Part shown: piece by piece, positions 44,197 through 54,296 of the stretch
Numbering within the stretch: the first letter of the stretch is position 1
How the letters are laid out: every line of letters begins with the position of its first letter
DNA from: Tamlana sp. 2_MG-2023
GTDB lineage: Bacteria; Bacteroidota; Bacteroidia; Flavobacteriales; Flavobacteriaceae
DNA: 64,000 nt
Assembly (NCBI RefSeq): GCF_030548465.1
Contig: NZ_JAUOSF010000003.1
Location: forward strand, 186,001 to 250,000
Direction: 5' to 3'
Notes under the pieces: generated by a model
The model's database searches: none
Told to the model about the DNA's origin: nothing
Seen by the model: only the letters and a program-made list of their open reading frames with translations
Position numbers and translations under genes: made by a program

Positions 44197-44979
44197 ATGA
44201 GTTATAATACGATTATTTTGAGTAGAACAGGGGCGTTAAGCACGATTACGATTAATCGTCCCAAAAAATTAAACGCGCTTAATAAAGAGACGATTACAGA
44301 GCTGCATGAGGCTTTCAAGGAAGCTGACTCTGATAAGGAAACCAAAGTTATTATTGTTACCGGAAGTGGTGAAAAAGCCTTTGTTGCAGGTGCCGATATT
44401 AGTGAGTTTTCAGATTTTAATGCTTCCGAAGGAAAGGCATTAGCGGCTAAAGGTCATGAACAATTATTTGATTTCGTTGAAAACTTATCTACACCCGTTA
44501 TTGCAGCTGTAAATGGTTTTGCATTAGGAGGTGGTTTAGAGCTCGCTATGGCTTGTCACTTTAGGGTAGCAAGTACTAATGCCAAATTAGGGCTTCCAGA
44601 GGTTTCTCTCGGTGTTATTCCAGGTTATGGTGGTACACAACGTTTGCCGCAATTGGTAGGAAAAGGGCGTGCTTTAGAGATGATTATGACGGCTGGAATG
44701 ATTGACGCAGCTCAAGCACTAACTTATGGTTTGGTAAATCACGTGGTGGGCCAGGAAGAGTTATTGAATTTCTGCACTGGCATAGCTTCAAAAATTTCAA
44801 ATAATTCTAGCGTTGCGATAAGTAGGGCGATAGAAGCAGTAAATGCTAATTATAAAACTGGTGTTAATGGTTTTGAAGTTGAAGTTGAAGCTTTTGGAGC
44901 TAGTTTTGGCACCGAAGATTTTAAGGAGGGTACAACCGCCTTTCTTGAAAAACGTAAACCTCATTTTCCTGGAAAATAA
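44197..44979 (+). CDS. enoyl-CoA hydratase (crotonase family)
   Basis: Hydrates trans-2-enoyl-CoA. 260 residues; oxyanion and catalytic region FVAGADISEF, NGFALGGGLELAMACHFRVAS and LPEVSLGVIPGYGGTQRLP, with both catalytic Glu positions present. Monocistronic; other beta-oxidation genes are not nearby. Confidence 0.94.
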   Translation: MSYNTIILSRTGALSTITINRPKKLNALNKETITELHEAFKEADSDKETKVIIVTGSGEKAFVAGADISEFSDFNASEGKALAAKGHEQLFDFVENLSTPVIAAVNGFALGGGLELAMACHFRVASTNAKLGLPEVSLGVIPGYGGTQRLPQLVGKGRALEMIMTAGMIDAAQALTYGLVNHVVGQEELLNFCTGIASKISNNSSVAISRAIEAVNANYKTGVNGFEVEVEAFGASFGTEDFKEGTTAFLEKRKPHFPGK

Positions 44980-45003
44980 AAAATTTAATTCAGTACATAA
45001 ATT

Positions 45004-45035
45004 AAAAAAGGCTATCCATTTAGATAGCCTTTAAT
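45004..45035. terminator. bidirectional terminator
   Basis: AAAGGCTATC/GATAGCCTTT with a 6-nt loop and A/T runs on both sides, between the enoyl-CoA hydratase and the first array gene. Confidence 0.8.
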
Positions 45036-45060
45036 TTGTAAAATGTGGTTCTTGCATGCT

Positions 45061-45660
45061 TTAAATGTGTTTTACGTATTCACGTCCTTCTGAGTGGAAA
45101 ACAATTTTATGACTTCCGCTTTCTAGTCCTTTCAATCTGTAAACTCTTTGAATGTTGGTTGTGTTTTCAATAGTTTCAGAAAATAAAAGTCCTTCGCTAC
45201 CTGGTGCGGTTGAATAGATATGAATTTTTAGTGGTTCACCATCTAATGCCAACTTGTTAATGTAAACGATACTGCCTTCAACACGCGTGTGCGGCTTATA
45301 AATGATCTCTTCTTTTTCCTTATCAAATAGCACTAATCCAGATTTTACTGAAAATGGAATAACGCTAATTTCAAGTCCCTTGTCTACTTCAAACATATAA
45401 GCGCCATTAGGCAACATGGTAAGGTCGAAACCAGTAGAGAAAATACCTGTTGTCTGAATAACTTCTTTATGTAGAATGACACCATTACTATCTTTAATTG
45501 ATAGTAGATTCCCTGCCTTTACGTAGTTGAAAGTAAGAGAGGTTCTGTTTGTTTCATTTTCAGCCTTGAAAGATGAAACTTCATTTGCGAAACTTAATAA
45601 GGTAGTCATCATGATTACCATTAAGATTCCTTTTTTTGAATGTTTAAGTACGTTTTTCAT
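45061..45660 (-). CDS. tandem-array secreted protein A
   Basis: 199 residues; signal peptide (GILMVIMMTTLLSFANE). First beta-rich unit (about 42-105): LSIKDSNGVILHKE, then FDLTMLPNGAYMFEVDK. Second unit (about 125-199): INKLALDGEPLKIHIY, SETIENTTNIQ, LKGLESGSHKIVFHSEGREY. The two units share a pattern SExI...L..L..G.Y. Most distant from the regulator gene in the array and among the more diverged. No known family or function recognised. Confidence 0.8.
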   Translation of the reverse strand: MKNVLKHSKKGILMVIMMTTLLSFANEVSSFKAENETNRTSLTFNYVKAGNLLSIKDSNGVILHKEVIQTTGIFSTGFDLTMLPNGAYMFEVDKGLEISVIPFSVKSGLVLFDKEKEEIIYKPHTRVEGSIVYINKLALDGEPLKIHIYSTAPGSEGLLFSETIENTTNIQRVYRLKGLESGSHKIVFHSEGREYVKHI

Positions 45661-45688
45661 AATAAAGTGTTTTTAACGTTCAACATAT

Positions 45689-45757
45689 CAAATATAGGAT
45701 TTAAATAAATATCATAAAACACTGATATTGACTGTTTTATGTGGTATTTTATCTGTT
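45689..45757 (-). promoter_or_regulatory. array promoter cassette A
   Basis: On the minus strand: AACAGATAA (45757-45749), TGTTTT, then 19 nt, then -7 box TATATTTG (45696-45689), 69 nt in total. The distal copy of the site is weak here. Confidence 0.7.
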
Positions 45758-45833
45758 ATTTTTGCGTTGCTAATTGGTTAGCTTATAATGATTAATAGCG
45801 GGTGTTTTTAAGAAATTGTTATGTGTTAGATAT

Positions 45834-45868
45834 AAAAAAAGGTGAACTTTTTTAAAAGCTCACCTTTT
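45834..45868 (-). terminator. terminator of array gene B
   Basis: AAAAAGGTGA/TCACCTTTTT imperfect hairpin with a T-run on the minus strand. Confidence 0.8.
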
Positions 45869-45905
45869 TGGCAAAAACTAAATAAGACATTAGTTCAATA
45901 TTATT

Positions 45906-46511
45906 CTAGATTGTTTTTTCGTATGCTCTATCTGCAGAATGAAGTACTACTTCATAGTTTCCTAAATTTAAGCGATCTAATTTGTAAGCTCTTTCGATTT
46001 TAGTCTCATCGCTAACTATTTCAGAAAGGATTAATTCTTTGTATCTATTTTCTTTGTTGGTAAAGTAGATGTCAATTTCTAAAGGCTCACCGTCAATAGC
46101 TAATTTGCTAATGTATAGGTGGTCGCCAACTACTCGAATAAATGGTTTGTAAACTACTTTTTCATTTTCTTTGTTGAAAAAAGCATTTCCAGAGCTTATT
46201 GAAAAAGGGATTTCTCTTATTTCAAGATCTTTATCTAACTCAAACATGTATTTTCCGTTTGGTAAAAACGTGAGGTCAAACTCTCTTGAGTAATTTCCTG
46301 TAACTTTAATTGTTTCCGAATAAAGTATAGCACCTTGATTGTCTTTAAGTGATAAAGAGCTACCTTCTCGAACACTACTTATTGTTAATGTTGTTTTTTT
46401 TGCAGCAACATCAATACTGTAAAATGAATTGTCGCTCGCGAAACTTACCATAGTAACAAATAAAGTTACTAATAAGAATCCTTTTCTTGAGTGTGTAAAT
46501 ATGTGTTTCAT
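45906..46511 (-). CDS. tandem-array secreted protein B
   Basis: 201 residues. Signal peptide (KGFLLVTLFVTMVSFASD) and the two-unit build of the family: LSLKDNQGAILYSE, FDLTFLPNGKYMFELDKDLEIREIPF, then ISKLAIDGEPLEIDIYF, LILSEIVSDETKIERAY, LDRLNLGNYEVVLHSADRAYEKTI. Close to C and D. Own promoter and terminator. Confidence 0.8.
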   Translation of the reverse strand: MKHIFTHSRKGFLLVTLFVTMVSFASDNSFYSIDVAAKKTTLTISSVREGSSLSLKDNQGAILYSETIKVTGNYSREFDLTFLPNGKYMFELDKDLEIREIPFSISSGNAFFNKENEKVVYKPFIRVVGDHLYISKLAIDGEPLEIDIYFTNKENRYKELILSEIVSDETKIERAYKLDRLNLGNYEVVLHSADRAYEKTI

Positions 46512-46538
46512 AATGTTTTATTTTATCATTTGATACTA

Positions 46539-46645
46539 CAAATTTATGATAGTTTTTATTGTTGTAAAACATTGGTATTGATTAGTTTGTGTGTTATTTT
46601 ATCTGTTATTAAACAGTTGTTTTAAGGTTAAGATAATATAACATA
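46539..46645 (-). promoter_or_regulatory. array promoter cassette B
   Basis: Minus strand: distal site TTATGTTATATTATCTT (46645-46627), proximal AACAGATAA (46607-46599), TGTTTT, 19-nt spacer, -7 box TAAATTTG (46546-46539). The remaining gap to gene C holds only the terminator of C. Confidence 0.75.
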
Positions 46646-46752
46646 AAACAAGGGTAATTTTGGTTTTATTCCAGGTTAATGACAATTAAAGAGCTGTTCT
46701 ATTTTATTTTTTTGAAGAAAGATATGATGAATTCTTGATGAAAGTTTTAAGC

Positions 46753-46790
46753 AAAAAAAAAGATGTTCCTTTTTTAAGAACACCTTTTTT
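46753..46790 (-). terminator. terminator of array gene C
   Basis: AAAAAAAGATGTTC...GAACACCTTTTTT hairpin with T-run on the minus strand. Confidence 0.75.
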
Positions 46791-46812
46791 CTAACTAAAC
46801 TAAACTAAGATC

Positions 46813-47418
46813 TTAGATATTTTTTTCATATTTTCTGTGAGCTGTATAAACTACTACTTGGTAATTTCCTTCTTTAAGTCCACTTAATTTGTATGCTTTT
46901 TCAATTTTTTCTTTATCAGATAATTTTTCTGAAACAACAACTTGAGAGTTGAAACTGTTTTTTCTAGTGTAAACAATTTCTATATCTAATGGCTCTCCAT
47001 CTAAAGCTAATTTACTGATGTAAAGCATGTCATTAGAAACTCTAATAAAAGGTTTGTAAACTGTTCTTTCTTTATATTTATTAAAACTAGCAATACCAGA
47101 ATTTATAGTGAAAGGGATTTCTTTAATTTCTAGATCTTTATCTACTTCAAACATATAATTTCCGTTAGATAAGAAAGCTAAATTGAATTCTCTTGTGTAT
47201 TTTCCTGTTGTTTTAATTGTTTCAGAACAAATAACTGTGCCAGCTGCATTTTTAAGAGAAAGTAAGCTACCTTCTTTAGCATAATCTAAAGTTAAAGTTG
47301 TTTTGTTTGCTTCAACTTTAATGCTGTAAAATGAATTTTCGTTTGCGAAACTTAACATAGTAGCAAATAAAGTTACCATTAAGAATCCTTTTCTTGTGTT
47401 TGTAAATATGTTGTTCAT
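46813..47418 (-). CDS. tandem-array secreted protein C
   Basis: 201 residues. Its first 27 residues (MNNIFTNTRKGFLMV...) are identical to those of protein D, pointing to recent duplication or conversion. Two beta units as in the rest of the family: LSLKNAAGTVICSE, FNLAFLSNGNYMFEVDKDLEIKEIPF, then ISKLALDGEPLDIEIVY and LSGLKEGNYQVVVYTAHRKYEKNI. Confidence 0.8.
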   Translation of the reverse strand: MNNIFTNTRKGFLMVTLFATMLSFANENSFYSIKVEANKTTLTLDYAKEGSLLSLKNAAGTVICSETIKTTGKYTREFNLAFLSNGNYMFEVDKDLEIKEIPFTINSGIASFNKYKERTVYKPFIRVSNDMLYISKLALDGEPLDIEIVYTRKNSFNSQVVVSEKLSDKEKIEKAYKLSGLKEGNYQVVVYTAHRKYEKNI

Positions 47419-47446
47419 AATATAAATATTTTCTGTTTTGATACTA

Positions 47447-47555
47447 CAAAGATAGGCTGCTTATAGGAGGTGCAAAACATGGAGATTGGCAGATTTATAT
47501 GCTAGATTATCTGTTATGTAAATGTTGTTTTTTCGTTAAGTTAATTTAGCATATA
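47447..47555 (-). promoter_or_regulatory. array promoter cassette C
   Basis: Minus strand: distal site TATATGCTAAATTAACTT (from 47555), proximal site whose reverse complement is TATATGCTAGATTATCTG (47498-47514), TGTTTT, 19 nt, -7 box TATCTTTG (47454-47447). This copy shows the inverted site pair best. Confidence 0.8.
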
Positions 47556-47666
47556 ATCAAGGTAATTCTGTTTGATTTTCATCCAGTTCGGCTTTTAAGG
47601 GTTAGAAGAACTTATTTACTTCTAGTTATTTTGGTACTGGAAAATTAGTATAGATACTACATATTC

Positions 47667-47702
47667 AAAAAAAAAGGCGATCTATTTAAGATCACCTTTT
47701 TT
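47667..47702 (-). terminator. terminator of array gene D
   Basis: AAAAAGGCGATCT/AGATCACCTTTTT imperfect hairpin with T-run. Confidence 0.8.
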
Positions 47703-47726
47703 AATTGTTCTTTTCTAAATTAAGAT

Positions 47727-48335
47727 TTAGATATTTTTTTCAAATCTTCTATCTGCAGCATGTAGTATTACTTGGTATTTACCTTGATTAAGATCTTCTA
47801 ATCTGTATACTTTTTCTATAGTGGCATCACCTTTTATGTTTTCAGAGATTACAAGTTCCGAATGAGATCTATTATTGTTTTTTGTAAAATAGATATCAAC
47901 TTTAAGATCCTCTCCATCCAGAGCTAATTTGCTAATGTAAACTAGATCACCAGACACTCTAATGAATGGTTTGTAAATTAGTTTTTCTTCATTTTTATTA
48001 AAGGTAACTACACCAGAATTTAATGTAAAAGGAATCTCTTTAATTTGAAGGTCTTTGTCAACTTCAAACTTATAGTCTCCATTTGGCAAAAATGATAAAT
48101 CAAATTCTCTTTTGTATCTTCCAGTAGCTTTAATGGTTTCAGAATAAAGTACCGATCCATTTAAATCTTTTATGGATAAAGCACTTCCTTCTTTAGCATA
48201 ATTTAAAGTTAAAGTCGTTTTGCTGGCTTCTACATTAATGTTGTAAAAGTCGTTTTCGTTTGCGAAACTTAACATGGTAGCAAATAAAGTTACCATTAAG
48301 AATCCTTTTCTTGTGTTTGTAAATATGTTATTCAT
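47727..48335 (-). CDS. tandem-array secreted protein D
   Basis: 202 residues. Signal peptide as in C. The duplication within the protein is clearest here: SETIKATGRYKREFDLSFL followed by NGDYKFEVDKDLQIKEI in unit one, against SENIKGDATIEKVYRLEDL and QGKYQVILHAADRRFEKNI in unit two. Own promoter and terminator. Confidence 0.8.
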   Translation of the reverse strand: MNNIFTNTRKGFLMVTLFATMLSFANENDFYNINVEASKTTLTLNYAKEGSALSIKDLNGSVLYSETIKATGRYKREFDLSFLPNGDYKFEVDKDLQIKEIPFTLNSGVVTFNKNEEKLIYKPFIRVSGDLVYISKLALDGEDLKVDIYFTKNNNRSHSELVISENIKGDATIEKVYRLEDLNQGKYQVILHAADRRFEKNI

Positions 48336-48364
48336 AATATATAAATTTTCTCTTTTTGATACTA

Positions 48365-48472
48365 CAAAGATATGTTAGTTGTAAGTCCTGCAAAACATTG
48401 GAATTGATGTATTTATATGTTAGATTATCAATCATATTGACACTAAGTTTATCTTGAGTTAATTTAGCATAA
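48365..48472 (-). promoter_or_regulatory. array promoter cassette D
   Basis: Minus strand: distal site TTATGCTAAATTAACTC, proximal ATTGATAATCTAACATATAA, TGTTTT, 19 nt, -7 box TATCTTTG (48372-48365). Confidence 0.75.
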
Positions 48473-48577
48473 TAGACAGTTAATAGAGTATGTTTTATGT
48501 TGTTTAAGCTATTTTAAATTGATTTTGATGTTGTAATGAAAAATCAATTTTTAGTAAACATCAGGTACGTATAATTC

Positions 48578-48615
48578 AAAAACGGAACACTTATATTTAA
48601 GTGTCCCGTTTTTAT
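48578..48615 (-). terminator. terminator of array gene E
   Basis: AAAACGG(A)ACACTTA/TAAGTGTCCCGTTTTT hairpin with T-run. Confidence 0.75.
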
Positions 48616-48634
48616 TTAATAAATATGAGAGAGA

Positions 48635-49093
48635 TTAGAATTTTTGTAAAGGGTGGCGATTAAATTTTTGTTCTTCTCGAAACAAGACCATATGCTTTTT
48701 ACCCTGATAAATATTTTTTACGTTGCAAAGGCTTTCAGCTTTGTTTTGTGCAAATGTTGATTTTATTTTTTTGAAAAATACCATTTCTGAAGCTACCTTA
48801 AAGGGGAGCTGTATGGTTTGCGAGTTTTCTATTTGTAAAAAATAATTACCGTTTTCTAAAAATGATAGGTCAACACCTTTAGAGTTAAATCGGGCTTTTT
48901 CATATAAAATATTTCCTTTGGAATCTTTTATGGAAATGAAACTTCCATCAGGAATATCATTTAGTGCCACGGTTGATTTTTTTATGGCATTAGTTATATT
49001 GTAATAAGCGGCTTTCTTTGCGAACCCAGATATACTGCTAAGTAAAACGGCTGCTAAGAATATTGTTTGTGAGAGACTAGCTATGTTTTTCAA
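48635..49093 (-). pseudogene. decaying tandem-array gene E
   Basis: 152 residues instead of about 200. Unit one is recognisable ([42 protein letters not shown]), but after residue 115 the second unit is replaced by unrelated basic sequence ending HPLQKF. The start is TTG where the others have ATG, in the same context (ATTTTGAAAAAC against ATTATGAAAAAC). The -7 box is TAAATTTA, not TTTG. Together these suggest loss of function, though a shorter functional variant is possible. Confidence 0.6.
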
Positions 49094-49111
49094 AATGAAG
49101 GATTTATGTTG

Positions 49112-49222
49112 TAAATTTAGCTGAGAAGTGAGCTTGCTAAAACATCTAAATTGGTAAGATTATATGCTAAATTACCACCGGATGATTATAGGAGACTATT
49201 GTTTAAATTAATATAACATATA
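49112..49222 (-). promoter_or_regulatory. array promoter cassette E, degraded
   Basis: Both sites (ATTATATGTTATATTAATTT and, inverted, TTATATGCTAAATTACC) and TGTTTT are kept with the same 19-nt spacing, but the -7 box ends in A and the AACAGAT part reads GGTGGTAA. Confidence 0.6.
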
Positions 49223-49370
49223 ATTTACATTGAATTTAAACGGTTTTCTTATATGAAGGTCCCTTTTTAAATTTATAAAAAAAGGCAAATTAGCAGAGGT
49301 TATAAGGGTTGTTTGTAGCTATAAAACAATGTACTCTAGGTGTGTGTGCTAGTTGAGGAAAATAGAAAGC

Positions 49371-49400
49371 AAAAAAAAGTGGGCCACCACAGCCCACTTT
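49371..49400 (-). terminator. terminator of array gene F
   Basis: AAAGTGGGC-CACCACA-GCCCACTTT perfect 9-bp stem followed by T-run on the minus strand. Confidence 0.85.
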
Positions 49401-49432
49401 ACCAACTAAACTAAACTAAATAAGACATTAAA

Positions 49433-50032
49433 CTAATTATTAATGAATTTCGTGTACTCCTTGTTATTAGAGTGTATTGTTATTTTGTAATTTCCTGTAT
49501 TCAATTTGTAAACCTTTTCGATTACTAATGCATCCTGTATTAATTCAGAGTGAATCATTTCGTATTCGCCTTCTGCAACTTCAGAAAATATATTGATAAT
49601 TGCAGTTTCATCATCAGAACAAAGTTTCGTTACATATAGTAAGTCTGCTTCGTGTTTAGTATGAGGTTTAAAATATGTTGATTCTTCAGCTTCATCAAAT
49701 TCAATTTCAGTAGTGTTTACTGTAAAAGGAATGGTGTTAACTTCTAAATCTTTATTAATTTCAAAAACATAATCTCCGTTTTCTAAACCTGTTAAATCAA
49801 ATCCTTTTGTATAAGTTCCAGTTGCTTCAACCGATTCTTTAAAAATGATGATCCCTTGGTTATCTTTAATAGAGACTAAATCGCCTTGTTTTACATCTTC
49901 TAGTGTTATAGACGTTTTTTTAGCGTCTCTCTTTACGATTACCTTATCATCTGCATTTGCGAAACCTAAAACCGTTGCTAGCATAGCTACCATCAGGATT
50001 CCTTTTTTAGTTAATGTAAGTACGTTTTTCAT
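49433..50032 (-). CDS. tandem-array secreted protein F
   Basis: 199 residues from ATG 50032 (MKNVLTLTKKGILMV); the longer frame to 50089 starts inside the promoter cassette. Signal peptide, then two units: VSIKDNQGIIIFKE, FDLTGLENGDYVFEINKDLEVNTIPF, then VTKLCSDDETAIINIF and LNTGNYKITIHSNNKEYTKFI. More acidic than B-D. It is the array member next to the AraC gene. Confidence 0.8.
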   Translation of the reverse strand: MKNVLTLTKKGILMVAMLATVLGFANADDKVIVKRDAKKTSITLEDVKQGDLVSIKDNQGIIIFKESVEATGTYTKGFDLTGLENGDYVFEINKDLEVNTIPFTVNTTEIEFDEAEESTYFKPHTKHEADLLYVTKLCSDDETAIINIFSEVAEGEYEMIHSELIQDALVIEKVYKLNTGNYKITIHSNNKEYTKFINN

Positions 50033-50060
50033 AATGAGTCGTTTATAACGTTCAACGGTA

Positions 50061-50168
50061 CAAAGATATGTGAGATCTAGAAGGTGCAAAACATCAATTT
50101 TGGCTTATTTATATGCTATTTTATCTGTTAACTATTTGTTAACTAAACATGAAGTTAATTTAACATAT
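50061..50168 (-). promoter_or_regulatory. array promoter cassette F, shared with the divergent AraC gene
   Basis: Minus strand: distal site TATATGTTAAATTAACTT (50168-50151), proximal AACAGATAAAATAGCATAT (from 50129), TGTTTT, 19 nt, -7 box TATCTTTG (50068-50061). The same sites lie 40-130 nt upstream of the AraC start, so the regulator may also control itself. Confidence 0.75.
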
Positions 50169-50209
50169 ATTTGAGTTAAATAAATATACAATGTATGCAT
50201 AATAAGTAT

Positions 50210-50217
50210 TAATTTTG
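50210..50217 (+). promoter_or_regulatory. possible -7 box of the array AraC gene
   Basis: TAATTTTG matches TAnnTTTG, 19 nt before the ATG at 50237. A second match, TATATTTG, is at 50166. Confidence 0.45.
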
Positions 50218-50236
50218 CTAATAAAACCCCTCTAAT

Positions 50237-51112
50237 ATGATTGCTAAGAAACCCACATTAAAGAAGCTAAGCCCAAGTTTTGGGAGCTCTATCTTGGTTA
50301 AACAGCATGTAGAACAGGTAGATAGGAATGGAGCCTTCTGGCATTTTCACCCAGAGTTGGAACTTATATATATAAATAAAGGACAAGGAAAGACACATAT
50401 AGGAAGTCATTTATCCTATTTTAACAACAGTCAATTAATATTAATAGGTTCTAATCTACCACATAATGGTTTTACAGATCGTTTAACTGCTAACGGAACA
50501 GAAACAACAATACAATTCAAGGCTAATTTTTTAGGAGACGATTTTCTTAACGTGCCTGAGATAGCAAATATTTCAGCATTATTTGAAAGAGCTAAAAAAG
50601 GCATTCGTTTTAAAGTTGAAACTAAAAAGAAGTTAGGGCCTAAAATTGAAAAGTTATATGAATATAAAGGACTAAAGCGCGTTATCAAGTTTTTAGAAAT
50701 TTTACATTATTTATCTAAAACAGATGATTACAATTTATTAAACGCTGATGGTCTGGCCTTTGAAGCCGAAGCGCAAGACAGTGCTAAAATTGGTGTGATC
50801 TTTAAGTATGTGAATAAAAACTTTACACACCACATTGCGTTGGATGAAATTGCAGATAAGGTGAGTATGACGGTTCCTGCCTTTTGTAGATACTTTAAGA
50901 AAGCAACTGGTAAAACATTTACTCAAATAGTAAATGAATACCGCGTGGTTCATGCTACTAAATTATTATCGGAGGAATTAGAAATGAGCATCGCCGATGT
51001 GTGTTTTGAATGCGGATTTAATAACTTCTCGCATTTTAATAAAACCTTTAACGATATTACTGGTAAAAGTGCATCGAGTTACCGTAAAGAAATTAAAAAG
51101 ATGATTAGTTAG
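50237..51112 (+). CDS. AraC-family regulator next to the tandem array
   Basis: 291 residues. N-terminal cupin-like sensor (FWHFHPELELIYINKGQG, about 36-53) and C-terminal double helix-turn-helix (about 195-288; HHIALDEIADKVSMTVPAFCRYFKK, SIADVCFECGFNNFSHFNKTF). It starts divergently from gene F and shares its control region. Control of the array is inferred from position and from the repeated sites. Confidence 0.9.
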   Translation: MIAKKPTLKKLSPSFGSSILVKQHVEQVDRNGAFWHFHPELELIYINKGQGKTHIGSHLSYFNNSQLILIGSNLPHNGFTDRLTANGTETTIQFKANFLGDDFLNVPEIANISALFERAKKGIRFKVETKKKLGPKIEKLYEYKGLKRVIKFLEILHYLSKTDDYNLLNADGLAFEAEAQDSAKIGVIFKYVNKNFTHHIALDEIADKVSMTVPAFCRYFKKATGKTFTQIVNEYRVVHATKLLSEELEMSIADVCFECGFNNFSHFNKTFNDITGKSASSYRKEIKKMIS

Positions 51113-51114
51113 GC

Positions 51115-51771
51115 TTATTTACTGCCTTCCCATTCATTATAAAACTGCTCTAGAAAGCTCAACATATAATTGTGACGTTCTAGGGCAATTTTTTTGCCTG
51201 TTTCCGTGTTCATGCGGTCTTTTAATAGGAGAAGCTTTTCATAAAAGTGATTGATGGTAGGCGCGTTTGAGCTTTTATACGCTTCTTTTGTCATATTAAG
51301 ATTGGGTTTAATCTCAGGATTGTAAAGCGCTCTGTTTTTAAAACCACCATAATTAAAACACCTCGCAATGCCTATAGCGCCAATAGCATCTAAACGATCG
51401 GCGTCTTGTACAATATCTAATTCAAGCGATTTAAATTTCTGTGTTTCGTTACCACCTTTAAAAGATATGTGTTTAATAATGTTACACACATGTTCGATAA
51501 CCGAAGTTTCAATATGAAGTTGGGTTAAGAAAGCTGCAGCTTTTTTAGGGCCTACGGTTTCATCACCATTATGGAACTTACTATCGGCAATATCATGCAG
51601 TAAAGCACCTAAAGCGATAATAAAGGTATCGGCTTGTTCGGTTTTTGAAATTAACAAAGCATTTTTATAAACACGCTCTATATGAAACCAATCGTGTCCG
51701 CCTTCAGCGTCAGCTAAAGTGTCTTTTACAAAAGTGATGGTTTTATTAATAATGTCTTCGGAAGTATACAT
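51115..51771 (-). CDS. HD-domain phosphohydrolase
   Basis: 218 residues; metal motif residues in HDWFHIERVYKNA, LLHDIADSKFHNGDE and the Asp of VQDADRLDAIGAIG. Family members hydrolyse phosphate esters, often nucleotides; the substrate is unknown. Convergent with the AraC gene, 2 nt apart. Confidence 0.9.
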   Translation of the reverse strand: MYTSEDIINKTITFVKDTLADAEGGHDWFHIERVYKNALLISKTEQADTFIIALGALLHDIADSKFHNGDETVGPKKAAAFLTQLHIETSVIEHVCNIIKHISFKGGNETQKFKSLELDIVQDADRLDAIGAIGIARCFNYGGFKNRALYNPEIKPNLNMTKEAYKSSNAPTINHFYEKLLLLKDRMNTETGKKIALERHNYMLSFLEQFYNEWEGSK

Positions 51772-51834
51772 AAGCTGAAATAAAAAATTCCTTTCAGAAT
51801 AAACTGGAAGGAATTGATTGATATTTTAGATTGA

Positions 51835-51913
51835 TTTTGTCATTCAGAAGGAGGTACGACTGAAGAATCTTTTAATAATTGTTGAGATTCCTCGATTCCT
51901 CGGAATGACAAAA
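51835..51913. repeat. MITE-like element with 11-bp terminal inverted repeats
   Basis: TTTTGTCATTC (51835-51845) and GAATGACAAAA (51903-51913) are exact inverted copies. The inside holds GACTGAAGAATCT and GAGATTCCTCGATTCCTCGG. Same family as 2501 and 19781. Confidence 0.65.
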
Positions 51914-51919
51914 CTGTTT

Positions 51920-52921
51920 TTACTTAATAATAGCAGGTTCTACCCATTTAAATTGGAATGAGTTTTCAGGCACTTTCATACGGTCTGATAAACGGTACAT
52001 TCTCGAAGGTAGTTTCATTAAATAATCTCTAGCTTTTTCAGCTTCATCGTTTAATCCTGTGATTTTATCAATTTCCCAACGGTCAATTAATTTCTGAAGG
52101 ATATCCACATAATCGGTAGATGTATAAACCCCAATACGTTGTGCCGTATTTGAGAATTCTTCAAAAGCAGAACTTATTTTACCACCCGATTCTCTTAAAA
52201 AGTGTGCAGGCATGGTAATTTTTTGTTTCATCATATAATGAAAAGCCATCATCATCTGGCTTGGATCTACTTTAAAAATACGATCTACAAAATCTGAATA
52301 CGCATGATGGTGGCGCATTTCATCACCAGAAATAATTTTACACATTTTAGACAAACGCTTGTTCCCCATGTCTTTAGCTATTTTAGCTACACGATTATGA
52401 GAAATGTAGGTTGCTAATTCTTGGAAACTTGTGTAAACAAAGTTTTTATAAGGATCTCTATCGGTTCCAATATCAAAACCATCGGCAATTAAATGCTGTG
52501 TGGTTTTTTCAATTTCTTTCATGTTTACCCTTCCCGAAAGGTAAAGGTATTTGTTAAGTACATCACCATGTCTATTTTCTTCAGAAGTCCATTGGCGTAC
52601 CCATTTACCCCAGCCGTTTTCTTTACCATCCATTTGGTCTACACCCTCAACATCCATTAACCACGATTCGTAGGTAGGTAAAGCTTCTTCGGTAATCATA
52701 TCACCCACTAAAACTACCCAGAAGTCATATGGCAATTCTTTAGCAAGCTCTCTAATTTCTTTTACTTCTTCGAAAAACTTTTCATCTGTCGTTTCAGAAT
52801 TAGGTAAAAAATCTGTCGGTTGCCAAATAGAATCTATAGGAATTAAGTATTTTTCCATTAGGGCGTCAACGTCTTTTTCCAAAAACTTCATGACTTCTAA
52901 TCTTTTATTTTTCAATGACAT
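51920..52921 (-). CDS. acyl-ACP desaturase
   Basis: Soluble diiron enzyme that adds a double bond to acyl-ACP using O2. 333 residues; diiron ligand motifs EENRHGDVLNKY and DEMRHHHAYSDF. It starts 11 nt after the second PlsC gene on the same strand, so both act in membrane lipid synthesis. Confidence 0.93.
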   Translation of the reverse strand: MSLKNKRLEVMKFLEKDVDALMEKYLIPIDSIWQPTDFLPNSETTDEKFFEEVKEIRELAKELPYDFWVVLVGDMITEEALPTYESWLMDVEGVDQMDGKENGWGKWVRQWTSEENRHGDVLNKYLYLSGRVNMKEIEKTTQHLIADGFDIGTDRDPYKNFVYTSFQELATYISHNRVAKIAKDMGNKRLSKMCKIISGDEMRHHHAYSDFVDRIFKVDPSQMMMAFHYMMKQKITMPAHFLRESGGKISSAFEEFSNTAQRIGVYTSTDYVDILQKLIDRWEIDKITGLNDEAEKARDYLMKLPSRMYRLSDRMKVPENSFQFKWVEPAIIK

Positions 52922-52932
52922 GTGTTGTAATG

Positions 52933-53670
52933 TTATGGTTCGATACTGTTTGTGATAGTGGTTTCTATACTATCTAATAGGTCTTGTTTGTTTACAAAGG
53001 TACTAACTTTTAAAGGCTTATGCACAGTAAATGTGATATGAGTGCCTAAACCCATTGGGAAATTGCCGTATTTTAACATTTTCCATGAATTATTTATGGT
53101 AATTGGGACAACAACGGCCGATGGAATTTTTTTAAATAAAATTTCTAAACCTCTCGTTTGAAATGGTTTTGGTACGCCGTTTTTACTGCGAGTACCTTCA
53201 GGGAATATGACCGCGGCGCGTTTTGTGTTTTCTATATATTCGCCAAATTTCATTAAGGCAGGAAGGGATTGTCTGGGGTTTTTACGATCAATTAATGCAC
53301 CACCACCATGACGTAAATTATAAGATACGCTTGGTATCCCATGGCCTAATTCTATTTTACTTATAAATTTAGGATGGTGTTTACGCATGTACCAAGTAAT
53401 GGGGTAAATGTCGTGTAAACTTTGATGGTTTGATACAATGATAAGTGGTTGGTTGGTGTCAATATCATACGGATTGGTAAAGGTAAAACGCGTACCTAAA
53501 AGTCTTGCGCAACAGATTAATGAAAACTGCAGGCCATCAACAACTTTTTTATGCACGTTGTATCCAAAAATATTAAAGCTTAACCACTGTAATACGTGAA
53601 ATACGCATAGTGTAAGAAAGAATACTATAACATAAATGACGCTTATCGGATATGATAGAATTTTTTGCAT
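52933..53670 (-). CDS. 1-acyl-glycerol-3-phosphate acyltransferase (PlsC family)
   Basis: 245 residues: N-terminal membrane helix, NHQSLHD (HX4D), GGALIDRKNPRQS and FPEGTRSKNG. Paired with the desaturase in one operon. Second PlsC of the window. Confidence 0.93.
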   Translation of the reverse strand: MQKILSYPISVIYVIVFFLTLCVFHVLQWLSFNIFGYNVHKKVVDGLQFSLICCARLLGTRFTFTNPYDIDTNQPLIIVSNHQSLHDIYPITWYMRKHHPKFISKIELGHGIPSVSYNLRHGGGALIDRKNPRQSLPALMKFGEYIENTKRAAVIFPEGTRSKNGVPKPFQTRGLEILFKKIPSAVVVPITINNSWKMLKYGNFPMGLGTHITFTVHKPLKVSTFVNKQDLLDSIETTITNSIEP

Positions 53671-53780
53671 GGGTCAAAAATAAGTAAATCTTGGTTCTGT
53701 TTAAATGAAGCTTAAATTATTTTCGTTTTTGTGAATGAAAACAAAAGAGGTTGTACCTACTTCTAATGATAAACGGGCAT

Positions 53781-53812
53781 AAAAAAACCACGATCGTTTG
53801 AGTATCGTGGTT
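53781..53812 (-). terminator. terminator of the bacilliredoxin gene
   Basis: AACCACGAT/ATCGTGGTT perfect 9-bp stem with a T-run on the minus strand. Confidence 0.8.
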
Positions 53813-53885
53813 CTGATTGTATTTTTATTCTAATTGAAATGCAATCTGTTTATAACGATTGTATCAATCAACGAAAAATAATTTT

Positions 53886-54296
53886 CTAGCAATGCTCGTT
53901 ATAAGCATCCTTAAGGTTGTCTGCAATTAATTCAGCAGGTCGTCCTTCAATGTGGTGACGCTCTAACATGTGAACCAATTCACCATCTTTAAATAATGCC
54001 ATACTTGGTGAGCTTGGAGGAAACGGTACCATGTGACCACGAGCTGCATCCACAGCTTCTTTATCAACACCTGCAAAAACAGTAACGATGTTGCTTGGTT
54101 TTTTTGCATTGTCTAAACTCATTCTTGCTCCTGGACGTGCATTAGCTGCTGCACAACCACAAACTGAATTTACAACCACTAAAGTTGTGCCTTCTTTTGC
54201 TAAAGCTGCATCAACCTCTTGGGCAGTATGTAATTCTTCAAAACCAACTTTCGTTAAATCTTCACGCATTGGTTTTACTAATTCTGCTGGATACAT
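53886..54296 (-). CDS. BrxA/BrxB-type bacilliredoxin
   Basis: 136 residues; CGC motif (Cys46-Gly-Cys48) in VNSVCGCAAANARPGA, typical of YphP/YqiW proteins. In Bacillus these remove bacillithiol from oxidised proteins; in Bacteroidota they are common and probably act in thiol redox. Single-gene unit. Confidence 0.92.
   Translation of the reverse strand: MYPAELVKPMREDLTKVGFEELHTAQEVDAALAKEGTTLVVVNSVCGCAAANARPGARMSLDNAKKPSNIVTVFAGVDKEAVDAARGHMVPFPPSSPSMALFKDGELVHMLERHHIEGRPAELIADNLKDAYNEHC

Follow-up and report, generated by a model that had tools for sequence, protein, structure and literature searches.

Locus and Promoter Cassettes

The window analyzed in this study, a stretch of 64,000 nucleotides from Tamlana sp. 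2_MG-2023 (contig NZ_JAUOSF010000003.1, positions 186,001 to 250,000), contains an array of six paralogous minus-strand genes for small secreted proteins (A to F, 45061-50032) and, divergent from it, the gene for an AraC/XylS-family regulator (Table 1). Every array gene is preceded by a promoter cassette comprising a 17-bp half-site (consensus TATATGYTAnATTAnCT), a -33 element and a -7 box. The layout of this cassette is conserved and co-occurs with the regulator and the protein family; because it recurs in many related bacteria carrying the regulator, the latter very probably controls these genes.

In gene orientation, the half-site is followed by 41 nt and then by the -7 box in A to F, and TGTTTT-19-TAnnTTTR is common to all six promoters. 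The initial annotation had reported 19 nt between TGTTTT and TAnnTTTG throughout; the spacing holds in six out of six cases, whereas E carries TAAATTTA instead of a TTTG box. A distance of 69 nt from a 9-mer to the end of the -7 box was reproduced for A, B, C, and F (AACAGATAA), the corresponding 9-mers being GATTGATAA in D and CGGTGGTAA in E; the ATTGATAAT previously quoted for D starts 1 nt later and thus lies at 68 nt. In B, C, D, and F, a second, inverted half-site lies farther upstream at 43 bp start-to-start (gap of 26 bp; distal scores of 16.7 to 21.3), and in E at 45 bp. No distal half-site was found in A at 43, 45, or 64 bp (scores -10.7, -13.2, and -19.1), so the statement that each promoter carries an inverted pair applies to five of the six (B-F). 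Mean identity over the 69 nt of the cassette amounted to 0.63, compared to 0.58 for aligned coding DNA (15 gene pairs), and on average 31% of the 69-nt coding windows matched or exceeded the cassette similarity. The earlier view that the cassette is more conserved than much of the coding sequence is therefore weakly borne out, and paralog similarity by itself represents weak evidence. Gene E has mostly lost its second domain and combines a weaker -7 box with the 45-bp spacing; it may be a degenerate copy, perhaps decaying.

Table 1. Genes and promoter elements of the array locus (window coordinates).
Feature	Coordinates	Strand	Remarks
Array gene A	45061..45660	-	199 aa, secreted; homologous to B-F
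A -7 box	45689..45696	-	TATATTTG
A proximal half-site	45738..45754	-	score 18.1; distal half-site absent
Array gene B	45906..46511	-	201 aa
B -7 box	46539..46546	-	TAAATTTG
B proximal half-site	46588..46604	-	
B distal inverted half-site	46631..46647	+	43 bp
Array gene C	46813..47418	-	201 aa
C -7 box	47447..47454	-	TATCTTTG
C proximal half-site	47496..47512	-	
C distal inverted half-site	47539..47555	+	43 bp
Array gene D	47727..48335	-	202 aa
D -7 box	48365..48372	-	TATCTTTG
D proximal half-site	48414..48430	-	
D distal inverted half-site	48457..48473	+	43 bp
Array gene E	48635..49093	-	152 aa, TTG start, shortened
E -7 box	49112..49119	-	TAAATTTA
E proximal half-site	49161..49177	-	
E distal inverted half-site	49206..49222	+	45 bp
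Array gene F	49433..50032	-	199 aa, divergent from regulator gene
F -7 box	50061..50068	-	TATCTTTG
F proximal half-site	50110..50126	-	
F distal inverted half-site	50153..50169	+	43 bp; doubles as inner half-site of regulator promoter
Outer half-site, regulator side	50174..50190	+	direct repeat, +21 bp; score 7.3
Regulator -7 box	50211..50218	+	TAATTTTG; 41 nt from inner half-site, mirrors F
AraC/XylS-family regulator	50237..51112	+	291 aa

The 17-mer has three perfect copies in the 4.01-Mb genome, each of them inside the array; with up to one mismatch, 12 places were found, eight of them in the array. At up to two mismatches, 75 places compare with 64 for the reversed control, so weak copies carry no meaning. 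The 43-bp pair pattern with at most three mismatches was detected at six places, namely in front of B, C, D, and F and at two places elsewhere (three mismatches each), with no match for the control. Random scattering of the motif, which the initial annotation had named as speaking against a bound regulator, was not seen in this genome scan: good copies are not scattered, and the perfect ones are confined to the array.

Conservation of the Inverted Pair and Co-Occurrence with the Regulator

To evaluate the conservation of the element, 299 genomes of the family were searched at the protein level, of which 177 hold a regulator ortholog at E <= 1e-50. In total, 100 ortholog upstream regions from 99 genomes with 83 genus labels were analyzed (80 orthologs at approximately 61% identity or more and 20 at 52-61%), the window itself being one of them. 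A position weight matrix (PWM) built from the 11 half-sites of the window was applied with free orientation and a free spacing of 18 to 109 bp. The best inverted pair was spaced by 43 bp in 88 of the 100 regions, by 64 bp (43+21) in eight, by 44 bp in two, and by 62 and 63 bp in one each. The shuffled 99th percentile (16.4) was exceeded by 82 of the 88 43-bp pairs, and shuffled sequences featured no spacing peak. Divergent or same-strand pairs were rejected as the main geometry, since no comparable peak was obtained apart from same-strand pairs at 21 bp (55/100), a peak that led to the outer half-site described below. Furthermore, 17 of the 18 regulators found in a second family of the order (45-51% identity) were evaluated, and 14 of these 17 keep a spacing of 43 or 44 bp.

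Searching for the element first gave a concordant picture. A strict two-arm pattern allowing up to three mismatches matched 83 of the 299 genomes, whereas the reversed control pattern matched none. All 83 element-positive genomes have the regulator, and none of the 122 regulator-free genomes match (Fisher 3e-24, kinship ignored). A looser pair pattern matched 130 of the 299 genomes but was also hit by the control, and the counts are therefore based on the stricter one. For 67 of the 75 matches listed, the start of the regulator gene is no more than 3.5 kb away, and 52 of them stand directly upstream of it. Moreover, 33 element-bearing loci were hand-picked from the pattern matches, 32 with the regulator (L069 by coordinates) and one without (L070).

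Particularly informative is genome G014, in which four array promoters reside approximately 270 kb from the regulator, each with the usual 41 nt between half-site and -7 box and with a second, inverted half-site at a distance of 43 bp; the regulator of this genome has its own copy of the element. Conversely, no site was found at unlinked paralogs, namely two in T. agarivorans (L001) and the one at C1:354307 of the own genome, which shares approximately 70% identity with D. These observations indicate that the element marks membership in the regulon rather than the protein family as such. The comparison strongly supports the earlier proposals of a bound regulator and of its identity with the adjacent AraC protein, given the co-occurrence, the prevailing 43-bp spacing upstream of the orthologs, and the G014 promoters.

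Anatomy of the Operator

Pair-anchored alignment was achieved for 93 of the 100 upstream regions, seven being dropped due to a pair score <12 or a position close to the edge. The resulting order comprises the target -7 box, the -33 element, the two inner half-sites (offsets 0 and 43), the outer half-site (offset 64), and the regulator-side TAnnTTT. The target -7 box occupies a single position in 84 of the 93 regions, and the regulator-side TAnnTTT is located at offset 100 or 101 in 83. The outer half-site forms a direct repeat with the one at 43 bp; its mean score of 4.3 over the 93 elements ranks second, after 43, among 211 offsets.

On the target side, 70 of 71 genes were scanned, one being close to a contig end, and the -7 box starts 41 nt past the proximal half-site in 66 of these 70 promoters (60/64 without L003, which repeats genome G291, that of L072). 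The four misses comprise three site-free promoters of unlinked copies and an E paralog whose site is weak. Retention of the distal sites was counted with L001, L003, and L085 set aside, together with one of the 27 regulator-adjacent promoters (proximal score of 8 or less). The 43-bp site is kept in 23 of 26 adjacent and 26 of 40 other promoters, the 64-bp half-site in 16/26 and 8/40, respectively, and other offsets reach 0.3-0.5%.

A further partial site was detected downstream. In the 66 promoters with the -7 box at 41 nt, the B-box, represented by the first nine half-site positions, recurs at +21 with a mean score of 2.0 (median of 58 offsets -7.8, standard deviation 3.6) and ranks second after the site itself, offset 12 being next with 1.1. 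The rest of the +21 place, beyond the B-box, is the -33 element. In Flavobacterium psychrophilum, according to the available parts of PMC9723704, TAnnTTTG is the -7 box of sigma-A promoters and spans -12 to -5. Taking the -7 box as -12 to -5 places the proximal half-site at -70 to -54, the distal one at -113 to -97, and the B-box at -49 to -41, while the TGTTTT -33 element (-37 to -32) coincides with the other half of the +21 site.

Taken together, the arrangement suggests two putative AraC-type direct-repeat pairs facing each other, flanked by the target promoter on one side and by a regulator promoter of nearly mirrored layout on the other. The initial annotation had recognized the motif pair correctly, but had overlooked the half-sites offset by 21 bp, the mirrored regulator promoter, and the missing distal site of A. 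The 26-bp spacer (e.g., window positions 50127-50152) contains conserved GTTAA/TGTTAA blocks approximately 11 bp apart at offsets 17-21, 27-32, and 38-42, possibly representing extra weak contacts or phased flexible steps.

Proposed Mechanism and Alternative Explanations

The regulator features a C-terminal double helix-turn-helix (HTH_18 73.4 bits, cut-off 33.6; HTH_AraC 49.7 bits, cut-off 26.6) and a candidate N-terminal cupin-like ligand domain, for which the matches are sub-threshold (AraC_binding 15.8 bits, cut-off 21.1; Cupin_2 15.4 bits, cut-off 27.2). The comparative sequence data render it well supported that the element is real and selected. The cassette most likely represents the operator-promoter of one small regulon, in which the AraC-family regulator would activate the array as well as its own gene, with a probability of roughly 78%. 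We infer binding by this protein, activation rather than repression, cooperation of the two arms, and a ligand for the N-terminal domain. The divergent AraC/XylS-family protein would bind the 17-bp half-sites and, by analogy with AraC at araI1-araI2 and MtlR at -72 to -36, activate the array and regulator promoters from paired half-sites. AraC-type activators contact RNA polymerase through such an overlap of a half-site with the -33 region. The inverted half-site 43 bp upstream (approximately four helical turns), often accompanied by another 21 bp beyond, would accommodate a second subunit or dimer. In the regulator-adjacent copy, the promoter of the regulator gene itself lies opposite this second arm in a nearly mirrored layout, suggesting that the regulator may also control itself.

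Several observations weigh against this interpretation. At the strict threshold, 94 of the 177 regulator-positive genomes are without a match, and six of the 88 43-bp pairs fall inside the score range of shuffled sequences, with very low scores in L172 and L173. Among the 75 matches listed, eight are located away from any placeable regulator: three belong to the G014 array, one (G169) duplicates a sequence that also stands beside the regulator, one (G231) was counted as distant since the regulator is present with its position unplaced, and those of L186-L188 have neither an array gene nor a regulator nearby. The distal site is missing in A, the spacing differs in E, and the lower 43-bp retention away from the regulator implies that the distal site may be dispensable there. 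Moreover, a full second half-site at target +21 found no support in the PWM scores, which are negative in the six window promoters (-6.0 to -17.8).

Two alternatives deserve consideration, although both appear improbable. The same regulator and sites could act in repression, the half-sites near -33 blocking RNA polymerase at both divergent promoters until release by a ligand. Autorepression is known for AraC-type proteins, and the sites are arranged symmetrically with respect to both promoters, reaching the -33 region of each. However, the proximal half-site resides upstream of the promoter (-70 to -54) in 66 of 70 cases, which is the usual position of an activator, and the regulator side is devoid of a conserved TTTG-like -33 element where the half-site sits, suggesting an activator-dependent promoter.

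To a comparably small degree, it is conceivable that the proximal half-site works alone at the array promoters, the distal one belonging to the regulator promoter and being carried along in duplications. This would agree with the difference in retention between adjacent and other promoters (23/26 vs 26/40), the loss in A, and the shift in E. Nevertheless, a retention of 65%, compared to 0.3% at other offsets, is unlike drift for paralogs sharing just 23-66% protein identity within arrays, and the site is retained in G014 far from the regulator.

Binding of the element by a different DNA-binding protein is very unlikely, considering that each of the 83 element-positive genomes carries the regulator, none of the 122 regulator-free ones match, and 52 of the 75 matches listed stand directly upstream of its gene. 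Recent duplication or homogenization alone, which the tandem paralogs and the cassette identity slightly above that of coding DNA might suggest, is hardly credible, as element and spacing recur across 83 genus labels and a second family, with almost no information in the columns outside the boxes. Equally implausible is an RNA hairpin or DNA cruciform: the arms are near-complementary, and no Rfam family matched in 44900-51200, which leaves new RNAs possible, but covariation is absent (12.52 of 17 complementary positions per element vs 12.42 expected under independence, 93 elements) and the arms are located upstream of the -33/-7 boxes of both genes.

Beyond the activator interpretation, the operator might tentatively be regarded as a member of an undescribed class, though this is somewhat doubtful. 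In such a class, head-to-head direct-repeat dimer sites with inner half-sites locked at 43 bp would couple regulator and target promoters, and target and operator would duplicate as a unit, building an array of secreted tandem immunoglobulin (Ig)-domain proteins under one signal. To our knowledge, signal, ligand, and targets are unknown for most AraC-type regulators of the Flavobacteriaceae. Here, sequence alone yields a candidate regulator, operator, and target family in dozens of genera, so that binding, spacing, and ligand become directly testable. The system would provide an activator-promoter geometry that is repeated exactly at Bacteroidota sigma-A promoters, and it would help to find out what a widespread family of small secreted Ig-fold proteins does.

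Array Proteins and Further Features of the Locus

A structure model of F, based on a 19-sequence alignment, was obtained with a mean predicted local distance difference test score of 79.8 and a predicted template modeling score of 0.70 (residues 1-29 under 50), and predicts two beta-sandwich domains. The best VIA-align match of this model is the DUF3244 protein 3sd2 (Z 10.1, 3.5 Å, 82 aligned). Next come the RgpB C-terminal domain (Z 9.6), fibronectin type III (FnIII) domains (up to 9.4), and RbmA, a biofilm scaffold (8.2-8.3). Z values of 8 to 9.4 are attained by many unrelated FnIII/Ig chains; with FnIII and RbmA so close behind 3sd2, the match indicates a common fold, not a function. Querying solved structures with the array profile at the sequence level gave nothing significant (best E 2.1). 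The predicted structure resembles the DUF3244 proteins of Bacteroides (PDB 3sd2 and 4g5a), but the array proteins differ in having two tandem domains and in that five of the six fall below the Pfam cut-off (PF11589, gathering score 25): D scores 26.3, and A, B, C, E, and F range from 14.9 to 23.7. The DUF3244 literature, as far as available, includes iron stimulon tables. Cargo of the type IX secretion system was rejected as an interpretation, as matches to the type A sorting domain were found at residues ~40-96, not at the C-terminus, all of them under the cut-off. Our guess is that the array proteins are surface or matrix proteins.

A different signal was observed at the unlinked array paralog of the own genome (L085:8308-8910), where the palindrome CGACAnnnnnTGTCG lies 23 nt before TAAATTTG. 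This palindrome occurs six times in 4.01 Mb, compared to zero for the reversed control. Three copies reside within 1.4 kb (L085:7692, 8197, and 9040, i.e., C1:353691, 354196, and 355039), and all three are followed by TAAATTTG at 23 nt. Two of them lack an obvious open reading frame (ORF) close downstream and could therefore precede small RNAs. At L206:1866, a fourth copy is paired with TAAATTTA at the same 23-nt distance, and the copy at L208:1782 (C43:178781) precedes a small ORF resembling, by eye, a YtxH-type stress protein, hinting at a stress regulon. At the unlinked paralog, the palindrome would point to a second regulator for the same protein family.

The neighboring genes (window 44197-54296; L052-L084) are kept across many genera with similar product sizes (260, 218, ~333, 245, and 136 aa), indicating that regulator and array occupy a stable chromosomal place, with G014 being the exception. 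In two congeneric genomes (L186:6314 and L187:6603), a 43-bp pair with three mismatches is located between two divergent genes, one of which heads a group with an ORF that is, by eye, biotin-carboxylase-like.

Comparison with Known Systems

No prior description of this operator or regulon was found in the literature searched, most subscription papers being outside its scope. The kind of regulation is ordinary and already known, whereas for the operator layout and the regulon no description was found. Half-sites of RhaS are inverted 17-bp sequences with a gap of 16-17 bp. The array operator shares half-sites on opposite strands with RhaS, but its gap is 26 bp (88/100), approximately one helical turn more, and further half-sites are located outside. 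At rhaBAD, the two RhaS half-sites lie on opposite strands, one of them overlapping the -35 region, as stated in the available text of PMC12858550.

In the accessible portion of PMC4514859, related 15-bp blocks (-72 to -58 and -50 to -36) are given for MtlR at the Pseudomonas fluorescens promoter PmtlE, and no inverted upstream arm is described there. MtlR is likewise an AraC/XylS protein, and, on the basis of that portion, its block positions are close to those deduced for the array promoters.

At araBAD of E. coli, AraC recognizes the direct repeat araI1-araI2, whose half-sites are 21 bp apart, the downstream one being at -35. The regulator described here has the same type of domain, and on its own side same-oriented 17-bp half-sites are also 21 bp apart. 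Unlike at araBAD, two pairs face each other here with 43 bp between their inner half-sites (start to start), the array promoters have just a B-box as downstream half-site, the promoter is of the Bacteroidota -33/-7 type, and the targets are secreted proteins.

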